This document shows, piece after piece, positions 8,201 to 20,200 of a stretch of DNA of 64,000 nt. This stretch comes from Rostratula benghalensis. Lineage: Eukaryota > Chordata > Aves > Charadriiformes > Rostratulidae. Within the stretch, counting starts at the first letter, position 1; each line of letters begins with the position of its first letter. Below the pieces are notes generated by a model, which had not been told where the DNA came from, searched no databases, and saw only the letters and a program-made list of their open reading frames with translations. A program made the position numbers and the translations under genes. The stretch is taken from assembly GCA_013399305.1 (NCBI GenBank), contig VXAI01000623.1, positions 82,167 through 146,166 of the forward strand, read 5' to 3'.

Positions 8201-11200
8201 CAATCTGCTGCTTTTTTAATGGCATTTCCACGGCAGGCGCCGCGGCAGCCGAGCATCCCCCGCGCCGGCTTCATGCCCTCCGGTGGCATTGGCTTTCTCT
8301 CTGGGTTTAGCACTTCATTGTGGCCACCTAAGGGCAGAATTCCTTTTCTTCTTCTTTTCTTTGAGGGAAGCCATCCCCTGTCGCCCACATGGCTCCTAGG
8401 CAGTTAATTAACTGTGTGAACTGGGCTGAAACCTGTGAGGTTTCTGAGCAAATTGGAAGTGCAGATTCGTTTCCCGGCTCAGCAGACCGCGATGCTGCTG
8501 AGGAGGGAAGATGCTGGAGGATTTCCAAGGTGGGTGGCAGGGTCTCGTACCAGACACAGCCTGGCTGGCGGTGGGGGGAAGGGGGTGAGGGGGTGTCAAT
8601 CTGTCTGCCTGCCCCCGATTTTGGGAAATCGCCATCCCTCCTGCACCACATGGACTTCGGAGCACGATGGGAGCGGGGCTTTGCTGACACCGGAGATGTA
8701 ATTAACGCCGTGTGGGCGATGCATCGCCTGGTGATGAGTTGAGGCTCTGGGTTAGGTCTCCAGGGGCTGTAGAGCTGGTCTAAGATGAGCAGCTCCTCTG
8801 GAGGGCGAGGACAAACACGTTTGGCCAGCGAGAGAGATCCCACCAGGGTTTGTCACGTGTCCCTGCAGGGTGCACGGAGCCGCACAGTGGCTGAGCAGAA
8901 GGGGTTTTTTGAGGTTGGTTTGTATGTAGTCGGTGAAAAAAATCCTTCCTGTTGGAGAGGTGAAGTGAACACAAGCCATTCTAGAGGCAGCGGGGCTGTT
9001 GTGGAGGTTAAACCTCCCTGTGGCACCCACGGATGGTACCGTGGTGCTGACCCCATGGGTCAGCAGCTCTCAGCAGGTGGGGGGACAGTTCCTGGTGGTC
9101 ACAGTTTGGTGAAAATCCCTTTGTATTTGGCTTTGGTTTCTTCTTCAGGTCCACAATGTTCCTGAAGAAAAAAAAAAAAATAATCCCTATGAGCACTGGG
9201 CTTATGCCCAGCAAGGCCATTGGAACCAGCACTGCCCAGGGAACCATCGTAGCCCCTTCCTCCTGCTCACCAGCCCCGGCTCACAGGAGCAGGGGGCACC
9301 TGAAGGCACCTGAAGGGGACCCTACAACTGTGCTGTGGGGAAGGTGGCACACAAGTGGTTTAAGGGAAGAGTGGGAGGAGCATCCCTTGGCCAACATGCC
9401 AAAAAAACCCAAGGGATGCTGGTCCTGCTGTCTCAAACTTACCTTTTCCTGTGGGTATTTGCTCCAAAACTGTTTTGACTCGCTGCTTTTGTCCCAAGGA
9501 TCTTCCCCACACCCTCTGGTCTGGAGTCTTGTCCCACAGCAGGTCATTTTGAGAGCAGGCTTGGCTGTGTCCTGCTGCCCTGCCCTCACCTCTGCCAACT
9601 CCAAGGGTTGTGGTCATTAATGTCACCATCACTACTTGTCTTGAGTCCCCAGGAGGGAAAGGGCTGATGTTTTCCATGTCACACCCCCACAGCAGGATGG
9701 AAGAGGATGAAATGTATTACCACAGTGAAGATGAGCTGCTGGGAGAGGGGGACACCCTTAGCCAGGGGTCCCTCAACACCAGGTAGGGAGCCTGTCAGCA
9801 CCCACTGGTGCTGGCGGCAGTGGGGTTTGCAGTGCTGTGCTGTTCCTGCCGTGTCCCCCCAGGATGTCCCACAGGCATTGACCCTGGATTCTCATCCCTT
9901 GGCTGCAGGAGAGCTGATGTGGGAAGCAATGGAGCAGGTAGAACAGCATCCTTGGAAAGGATGCTCAAGAGGGGTGGTGGGATGGAGGAAGGCCCTTGGG
10001 GTGAGGCTGCACCTGGGGAAATGCCTCACCTTTGAGAACCCTTCCTTCTCCAGGTCCCACTGTGTATCAGGGACAGCTCTCCCCAGACCCAGAGATCAGC
10101 CATGTCCAGCACATGGGGAAGAGCTCCCATCGACGTGCATGAGGATCTGATTCCTGTTTGCAGTGGCTTTTCTTGCAGTGGGATGCTGTGAGTTGTCTCC
10201 CACCAGGTGCCAGGAAGAGTTCGGGGAGGAGCTGCAAAAAATGAGAAGTTCAGGTAAAACCCAGGGGCCAATTCAATACCTCTGAGAGCAGCTCAGCCAA
10301 AGGAAGGAGCATTCCAGGCAGGGAATCATCAACTCATTTGGGTCCAGTGATGGCAGAAAATACATGAGGGTGGTTGCTCCTACACATTGCTCTTCTGGGG
10401 AGTTTGTTTCTCGTAGTAGCTCTCCATGCAGCCTGTTGCCATGTGCCTCAAGCTTACAGAAATCATAGAATTGTCCAGGTTGGAAGGAACCTTTCAGGTC
10501 ACTGAGTCCAACCATCAACACAACACAGACAAAACTCACCATTAATCCACGTCCCTCAGCACCACCTCTGCCCGGCTTTGAAATCCCTCCAGGGATGGGG
10601 ACTCCACCACTGCCCTGGGCAGCCTCTGCCAAGGCTTCACAACATTCTTTCAGTGAAGAAATTTTTCCTAATATCCATCCTAAATCTCCCCTGGGGCAAC
10701 TTGAGGCTGTTTCTTCTTGTCCTATCGCCTGTTCCTTGGGAGAAGAGACCGACCTCCACCTCTCTACAGCCTCCTTTCACGCAGTTATAGAGAGCATTAT
10801 ATATACTATATATAGAGAAAGAGAGCAATATATATATATATGTAGCAATATATATATTCTCTCTCACAGAGAATAAGCTTCACTAGTGTGAAGATATTGA
10901 CCCTCCATCATGGGAATTTGTGGCCACACCTATACTGGTGAACACCTCTGTCCAGTCTCATTAATTAGACAGTGTCAGGTCAGCCACTTCAAGTGCCTGT
11001 GACATCAATAAATCATTAGGAGAGTTTATGAGAAGGTTTGGGCTGCCTGGCACAGTGACCCAAGCCATCCCCATGCAGGGTAGGAGGTGCAACAGCCACG
11101 GGCTGGCCAGTGCCAAAGGGCAGATCAGGGGTTGCCCATCCAAACCCTTTGTTTGGGTGGGAAGCATCAACATGGGTTTGGCTTCAAAGGCAGGGAGTGT

Positions 11201-17200: not shown

Positions 17201-20200
17201 TTACAGCAGGGAAGGTGGAGTGGAGCTCAGGCATCCACCTGAGGATGCTGGTCCCCATCCCAGCATCACCCCACAGCGGTGGGTTGCTCAGAGAGATGCA
17301 GGTGCTGGTCCAGGTGGTGATCTGCAGGGAGCTGGGACCACATCCACCAACTGCAGGAGAATGCAGGGAGAGATTTATATCCTCTCCCAGCACTGGGCAG
17401 GGGCACTAGGGCAGCTTTCATGATACAGATGAACCCACTGAGCTGCTGACGTGGGTGTTTGCTGGCTCCCATGAGGAGCTCAGCTGGTGAGGGAAGGATT
17501 TCTGCTGGTTTGCTGTGGGAGAGCAAGTGGCAGTGAGGGGAGAGGGCTCGCTTCAGAAGGGGCTTCTGGATGGGTTTCTTTGGCCATTTTCCAGCCCAGG
17601 CTCTCTCCAAGATGACCCCTGCCTGTGCTGGGCTGAGTGGGAGGACCCTGCTCTTCCCACACTCCCACCCAGCACTGAGTCCTGCCCCCCACTTTATGCT
17701 GGAGCTACTCTTCTGGACATCACTTCTCTAAAAACCCATCCAGCCACACACCCCCACAAAAAAATTGGGTTTGTTTCTGGGTGGGTTTCCAGCAGCTCAG
17801 TGCACAGGGAGCTGGAGCTTCAGGCTCTGAAGCCAATCTCCTGCCCCACATCCCCAGCACAGACATGGCCATGGGCTGGAGTAACGAGCTGTAATTAATA
17901 ACCAGCCCTCCTAATTGCTCTCTAGAGCTGGTTAATTGCTTTCTCCTCCCCGCTTTGCCAATGCACGATGGGTGAGATTAACCAGGGAAGAAAGAGTGAC
18001 TGGGGAGGAAAACAAGGAGGTAGGATCCAAATAGAGAAGTGTGGGAGCCACCAGAGAAGGAAAAGGGGTTTGAAAAGGCAGAAAGCAGGGACAGAGCAGG
18101 AGTTTGCTGTGAAAATGGGAGGTGAGGAGTCGGTGTTTCCTGCATGGTGTCAGGGCAGGGGAGGCAGAATCAGTCTGGGCAGGGATGAGGATCCCCCCAA
18201 CCCAGTCCAACTCATGTCCTCCAGCTGATCCCTCTCTGGAGGGAGGACATGAATCCTGCTTTGTGGGAGGGTAAGGAGGAGCATTTCCCCCTATTAAAAA
18301 GGAGCAGAAGCTTTGTCTTCTGCCCTGGCAGCATCCCAAATCTCTGCACTTACTCATTCACACATCTGCATGCACAGCTGTACCTGTTTTTCTGGCCCCA
18401 TACACACATCCAGTGAATGCCCATCACCTCCAGCTCCTCGTGCAGGGGGCTGTGGTTCCCCTAAGCCCTTCTAGCCTAGCAGGAGGTCACCTGGAGATAT
18501 CACCCCCCTGAATGACAGATGCAGGCAGGTCAGGGGTGTTTGGGGTGAGCTCTGCTGAGGAAGGTTGCCCATGACCACAGCCTGGGGATATGGGCCTTGG
18601 AGCTCTCCCGAGGAACAGGGAAGCTCCAAGGGAAGAGCAGCCTCTTCTGATATTATGGTCTGGTTTGAAGCACACTGAAGCTTGTTTGCCTTTTGTTCCC
18701 TTGATGCACGGCCACCGGCTCCAGCAAAGGCAAAGAGAAGATGAAGGAGCACAAGTAGGTTTGATCTCCTTGCTCCTTCTCCTGCTTCTTGCTTCCAGCT
18801 TTCCTTCCCAGCTCATCTGGCTGATTCCACATATGGTGTGCTCTCCCTTTCTCTAAATCTGCATCTGTCAGCTCTGGAGGAGTTTAGGTCTCTTGGATGT
18901 GTGGCCTGAGGTCCCAGAGCCTGCAGGGAATGTTTATCTACTGCAAAAGCCAAATGTAAAAGACAGGCTTGGAGAGGTCCCTGGCAGTGGTGGAAGGGAG
19001 CTGTGATGTCTTGAGAGAATCCTGGCTCCCATCAGGTTTGGATGGGTCTTGGCTGAGGGGAGAGTTTCCCAAGGATGGCCTGGCCAGGACTTGGGACAGG
19101 AGAGGGTCTGGGACAGCTACAGGTCTACAGGTCATCCATGTAGACAAGTGTCTTCAGGTCCTGCTTTCTTTTTATGCCCAGCTGCTTGCATTAATACCAG
19201 ACCAGAGTGTTCCAGCTCTCTCCCAGTAGCTCTCTGGCTGAGCAGATCTGCTGAATTTTAAGCTCGAGTCTCTTGCAAGCACAGGCTCATCTCCTGCTCT
19301 CCAGGAGATGATCCCTGCAGCCACCACAGGGCACTTCCCAGTCGGGGAGGTCTCTCCTGGCTCATACTTGTCCCCAGCTGCATCTGAAGGACCAGTTTCT
19401 GGCAGTGTCTCCCGGATGAACCCTCCTGATTAATGGTGTAAAGTGAAGAGGCAGAGAGGAGGTGAGGAAAGGAAAGAAATGTCTTCAAGCAGTCAGCAAG
19501 GAGGGGGCAGACTCAAGAAAAGGTGGGAAGGGATCTCCCCCCACCAAACATCCTGCTCCTTGCTGGCTCCCCTCCCCAGTTTGGCTGTGCTGGGGAAAGG
19601 CAGGCTGGGTCTGAGGGCTGGGGGTCTTCCCTGGGCTTGAAGGGACGATCCTATGGGGCTGGCAGTGGGGTCTGCCCCCAGTGCCAGTGGGAGAACTGGA
19701 AGTCTTGTTAGCTAGAGAGTGATGGAGGCAGCACCCACCTGAGAGGCATAATTCCTGCAAAGAAATGGGCCATGGCAACCCTGCTCCCAACTCCCCAGTA
19801 AAAAGCAATGATTAAAATGTCCTTTTTTTTGGCCATGAATAATTAACCAGTGGCCTGCAACCTTATCTTTAACTAGAAGCTGGCCAGGAGAGAGACTGCT
19901 TTCACTGCCTCAAAATCTGCCTGTCCCTCACTGCTCCTCTCCTGGAGAGCCACTTGAGAGAAACCCTAAAAGACAAAGCCAAGTGCTTCTCTTTGTGCCA
20001 ACTGCAGATAATTCACCTGCCCAGTCCCATATTAGACACTGGAAAATCCAAGGGGGGAGCTCTGTGGGAGGCTGGATGGGTACTCTGGTGTCTCATACAG
20101 GAATGAAGCTTGCTTGGAGGCTTGTCCCTACGTGGGAACTGAGTGTAGGTGTTCAGTCCTTCACCCTCAAACTCACCAGACCCCAAGTCTTGACTCTGCT

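Follow-up and report, generated by a model that had tools for sequence, protein, structure and literature searches.

Six probable alternative exons for the C2A-C2B linker of bird otoferlin

The window analysed here, a 64,000-nt stretch of DNA from Rostratula benghalensis, contains the greater part of an OTOF gene, which is read from the plus strand, and one 17 kb intron of that gene holds six short exons, E1 to E6, that are very probably genuine, separately usable cassettes of the linker between the C2A and C2B domains of otoferlin. Comparison with the otoferlins of other vertebrates makes us confident that these are alternative exons entering the flexible linker at the point of human residues 170/171; the choice of subset may tune its length and charge. 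Every exon is a multiple of three nucleotides long and is flanked by phase-2 junctions, so the reading frame survives whichever subset is included. We infer that the exons are included in RNA of this bird, that their inclusion is regulated by tissue and that it has a functional effect.

The host intron and its six frame-neutral exons

OTOF exons from approximately human residue 79 to the C-terminus were placed by tblastn with a single isoform of human otoferlin as the query. Exon 5 (7097..7308, plus strand) ends in phase 2 (...AGA AG, encoding ...FRR), and exon 6 (24124..24197, plus strand, 74 nt) starts with A GCC GGG, from which a stretch of 13 residues was read; both were positioned by tblastn and by junction fit to the human protein, the same fit that gave the 170/171 insertion point. 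The intron between them (7309-24123) is phase 2. Solved structures searched with a single exon from further downstream confirmed otoferlin, myoferlin and dysferlin.

The initial annotation had proposed six candidate exons within this intron, and all were recovered with AG before, GT after, and an open phase-2 frame that agrees with the phase of the host intron. On the plus strand these are E1 (9696..9782, 87 nt, 29 residues), E2 (12904..12939, 36 nt, 12 residues), E3 (14651..14686, 36 nt, 12 residues), E4 (15624..15644, 21 nt, SEDPEDP), E5 (16607..16654, 48 nt, 16 residues) and E6 (18725..18754, 30 nt, ten residues followed by K). All six thus share the features of symmetric cassettes, namely AG/GT borders, a length divisible by three, equal phase at both ends and no stop codon. 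The codons formed at the junctions are limited to AGG, AGC, AGA and, where E6 joins exon 6, AAA, so all 64 inclusion patterns remain open, as had been claimed. Joined to exons 4 and 5 and to the exons up to approximately position 49881, the pattern with all six translates into 1377 residues without a stop. When every junction residue was counted once, the net charges of E1 to E6 were -8, -5, +2, -4, +5 and +2; the approximate values given previously (-7, -4, +3, -3, +6, +3) were each off by roughly one unit. Net charge totals over the 64 combinations run from -17 to +9. The acceptor of E1 is doubled (CAGCAG, 9690-9696), so that a version of E1 longer by one residue is possible.

A degenerate CCAT repeat of ~90 units lies at 15927-16305, between E4 and E5. 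A repeat origin of the cassettes was considered and rejected, since none of the cassettes has a second match within the window; the poly-T tract upstream of E2 was the only cassette-region match. No seventh cassette was supported when the intron was searched for motifs of the additional pieces seen in turtle, owl, gecko and gar, or when charged candidates of 9 to 18 nt between E6 and exon 6 were considered.

Further downstream, one C2-domain exon is present in two tandem copies (58119-58217 and approximately 58385-58481). An exon of the second type is used by the models of an eagle (P0019), a frog (P0063) and two salamanders (P0097, P0115), and both types follow each other in that of a sturgeon (P0066); from this usage, the two look like an old mutually exclusive pair. 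The second copy of this bird has lost one codon and has TG instead of GT at its in-phase donor, and therefore looks decayed. Mammalian OTOF is described as having two alternative transmembrane exons, 47 and 48 (PMC10394277). Here tblastn with the one human isoform placed a solitary transmembrane exon at 61482-61661 and found no second.

Splice signals and counterparts in other vertebrates

Splice signals alone do not single out the six exons, and by this measure chance is not rejected. A score matrix built from the junctions of this OTOF gene was applied to every frame-neutral, open, phase-2 AG-GT stretch of 18 to 120 nt in the host intron; among the 1406 such candidates, the exons ranked 8 (E1), 56 (E2), 78 (E3), 45 (E4), 40 (E5) and 26 (E6). 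Such numbers would fit a chance account, in which an intron of 17 kb offers many open AG...GT stretches and six of them had been chosen for their charged peptides. We regard this account as highly improbable, because identical or near-identical peptides, with the same borders and at the same place, occur in the otoferlin models of other birds, and because no other candidate matched the stork and crane inserts as well. This comparison between species indicates that the six are more than chance. The earlier designation of these stretches as genuine cassettes is thus carried by their homologues; the argument from borders and frame that had been offered for it is insufficient on its own, with ranks of 8 to 78 of 1406.

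We also scored all GT/AG junctions by a leave-one-out procedure against 37 canonical acceptors and 38 canonical donors of the gene. The acceptors of E1, E2, E4 and E6 were weak, exceeding only 2, 2, 4 and 2 canonical acceptors, respectively, as expected for optional exons. Those of E5 (above 17 of 37) and E3 (above 8 of 37) did not stand out as weak. The donors exceeded 23 (E1), 15 (E2), 10 (E3), 10 (E4), 8 (E5) and 21 (E6) canonical donors. A stronger statement, that every cassette has a site weaker than all canonical ones, was dropped, as the full junction set with leave-one-out scoring left weak acceptors in four of the six.

When the protein joined from the exons of the window served as query and the linker was the scored region, 1578 matches were obtained, and we examined the best 120. 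These models are predicted proteins, representatives of 90 percent clusters, and were compared at the peptide level, without the DNA of the other species. In the stork model (P0001), the insert is one run of 52 residues followed by SKGKEKTKEHK, which corresponds to E1+E4+E5+E6 with the borders given above. The crane insert (P0003) equals E3+E4+E5, and the quail insert (P0004) consists of E1, then E2 with one change in 12 residues, then odd sequence. Since these three inserts together hold all six exons with the same borders, each exon is backed by at least one other bird; at the peptide level, E1, E2, E3, E5 and E6 also have counterparts in gecko or turtle. E1 is identical in stork and quail and related in gecko (P0002), turtles (P0005, P0027) and a snake (P0051). 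E3 is identical in crane, and E4 and E5 are identical in both stork and crane. E5 has relatives in gecko, turtle, cordylid lizard, gar and frog. E6 differs by one change in the stork and in parrots (P0007, P0009, P0010), and related forms occur in pigeon, goose, turtles and frogs; three parrot models, one pigeon model and one goose model contain E6 alone. The bird evidence for E2 is the quail model, which is of uncertain quality, with related peptides in turtle (P0005) and gecko, and that for E4 comes from the two bird models. When scoring was confined to the cassettes (query residues 103-192), seven proteins matched, ranging from gecko (1.7e-24) through stork (1.5e-20) to a turtle (1.9e-5), with a database of 5.8 billion.

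As a control, the peptides of all 1406 candidates were compared, ungapped, with the inserts of eight species; many of the peptides that ranked above a cassette were versions of a cassette with other borders. For stork and crane, every one of the 12 top-ranked candidates overlapped one of the six exons. With the gecko insert the ranks were 1 for E1, 6 for E5, 10 for E6, 11 for E3, 19 for E2 and 270 for E4, the last giving no similarity support. The turtle insert, from which E3 and E4 are absent, ranked E1 first, E5 7, E2 10 and E6 13, and the cordylid lizard insert ranked E5 first, E3 4 and E6 9. E3 was the top candidate for both fish. In gar it was followed by E5 (4), E1 (9) and E6 (16), with E2 (133) and E4 (429) unsupported; in sturgeon E1 (13), E6 (20) and E5 (50) fell below unrelated candidates near 16904-17032. 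For the frog insert, the first rank went to an other-frame candidate over E5, E5 itself was third and E6 was 12, with unrelated candidates near 8000 and 8460 in between. These peptide similarities suggest good deep conservation for E3 and E5, marginal conservation in fish for E1 and E6, conservation of E2 within amniotes only and of E4 within birds only.

Three owl models (P0006, P0008, P0017) carry a short SRDGE insert at the place of the bank, and a similar extra piece, RGKDGE, is found in turtle E6. A motif search of this intron found no convincing counterpart of either.

Combinations, regulation and precedents

The bank of frame-neutral exons proposed for the C2A-C2B linker is borne out by the models of other species. 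Cassettes were called by motif in the first 400 residues, with motifs written after the sequences had been inspected; in gar, E2 and E4 were assigned by order, and so was the gecko E4. Among the best 120 of the 1578 otoferlin models, 28 contained at least one cassette and 92 contained none, so that the exons are present in some models and skipped in others. The 28 fell into ten non-empty combinations: E6 alone (12 models), E1 alone (5), E5+E6 (3), all six (2), and one model each of E1+E4+E5+E6, E3+E4+E5, E1+E2, E1+E2+E5+E6, E3+E5+E6 and E1+E3+E6. As the models represent 90 percent clusters, these counts are no measure of usage. The suggestion that predicted bird isoforms might already list some of the exons also proved right: other birds' predicted otoferlins contain them, with isoform numbers up to X19 among the best 120 of 1578 matches. 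The sequences are therefore not unknown, being present in automatic annotation.

No cassette was called in 24/24 models that we take, from their species names, to be passerine, or in 4/4 that we take to be crocodilian, again among the best 120 of 1578; this may reflect loss, annotation or clustering. P0028, encoded by a 5303-base contig that specifies 1602 residues and thus probably a spliced transcript, also lacks all cassettes.

It is quite conceivable, at somewhat below even chances in our estimate, that the exons are real and conserved and yet are used mostly as a single regulated block or in near-silent minor forms, with the 64-fold repertoire left unused. The 92 models that skip all six would fit such a pattern, as would the joint occurrence of E3, E4 and E5 in crane and of E4 and E5 in stork. 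Against a block stand the ten combinations themselves, in particular E1 alone, E6 alone and E1+E2 without the rest, together with the possibility that gene models combine exons never present in the same RNA. We favour cassettes that can be used separately.

It appears unlikely that the bank belongs to the microexon programme that SRRM4 controls in neurons and hair cells. Microexons of this programme are 27 nt or shorter; E4, with 21 nt, was the only one of the six within that size, the other five being 30 nt or longer. A UGC within 25 nt upstream was present in four of the six cassettes, and was equally common before canonical exons of this gene (24/35 acceptors), so that there was no enrichment beyond background. 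In favour of the programme, besides E4 and these four UGC motifs, is the requirement for Srrm4 in hair cells and for exons with upstream UGC reported in an earlier study (PMC3464207).

Several optional exons within one intron are also found in mutually exclusive arrays of the Dscam type. The OTOF bank differs from these in that its members are not mutual copies (by blastn, no cassette matched another) and in that between two and six of them can occur together in one gene model. The closest known parallel is exon 5a of dysferlin, which lengthens the C2A-C2B linker by 31 residues and brings nine potential phosphorylation sites (PMC9333456). Like the six exons here, all of which fall between C2A and C2B and are optional in gene models, it is an optional exon of a ferlin A-B linker, and through phosphorylation it may alter charge (PMC9333456). 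Unlike the bank, it is one exon instead of six and belongs to another paralogue; the likeness drawn here is one of position and optionality. Optional exons of KCNMA1, the BK channel gene of chick and turtle hair cells, were tested as a basis of tonotopic tuning (PMC10018040) and similarly place several optional exons in one hair-cell protein, but that protein is an ion channel with expression data, whereas the otoferlin bank is known here from sequence and gene models.

In the same gene, alternative splicing in mammals is reported for exons 6, 31 and 47 and for exon 6b (PMC10394277, PMC7768390). Of these, 6 and 6b are situated near the bank (PMC7768390, PMC10394277, PMC10227054), but 6b starts an N-terminally shortened protein. 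The consulted passages of these three sources describe no cassettes between exons 5 and 6 of mammalian OTOF, and the presumed absence of the bank in mammals rests on these passages. A full-text literature search, with subscription journals mostly outside its range, retrieved no paper on cassettes at this place in any species, and OTOF was not named in the main text of a study of chick tonotopic splicing (PMC8456117). Antibody HCS-1 is reported to recognise otoferlin of chicken but not that of mammals (PMC5632675). The bank as such seems to be undescribed in the searchable literature.

Proposed linker function and wider significance

The A-B linker was described in a modelling study as the longest in human ferlins, with 132 residues in otoferlin, and as mostly unstructured but for an acidic helix followed by a basic one (PMC9333456). 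The bank follows this modelled acidic-then-basic layout, with acidic E1 and E2 upstream and basic E5 and E6 downstream; E4 departs from the order. The cryo-EM study of mouse otoferlin used residues 216-1931 and found linker residues 239-265 wrapped round FerA (PMC12526402). With insertion at 170/171, the cassettes would therefore lie upstream of this ordered part. Inclusion would lengthen the tether of C2A by 7 to 86 residues and shift its net charge by -17 to +9. In binding experiments, endophilin A1 and clathrin light chain A were bound better by fragments with C2A than by those lacking it, and the same held for self-binding (PMC10227054). The choice of subset may thus tune the distance between C2A and the ring formed by the remaining C2 domains, and may tune contact of the linker with membranes and with endophilin, clathrin and otoferlin itself.

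A more far-reaching proposal, which we offer as speculative and rather doubtful, is that of an ancient splice code, in which early bony vertebrates already possessed a bank of optional exons for the otoferlin linker, its acidic members upstream of its basic ones. The bank would have been kept in bird, reptile, amphibian and non-teleost fish lineages and lost in mammals, perhaps also in songbirds and crocodilians, with hair-cell types or frequency places choosing subsets and thereby setting C2A tethering and vesicle release.

Otoferlin drives transmitter release in hair cells, is needed for hearing and is a target of gene therapy. The structures and mouse work cited here use otoferlin that lacks the six cassettes. 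Should the linker be combinatorial in birds, reptiles, frogs and fish, what is concluded from mammals might not apply to them, findings in chick hair cells could vary with the isoform, and the role of C2A tethering would be testable with natural variants.
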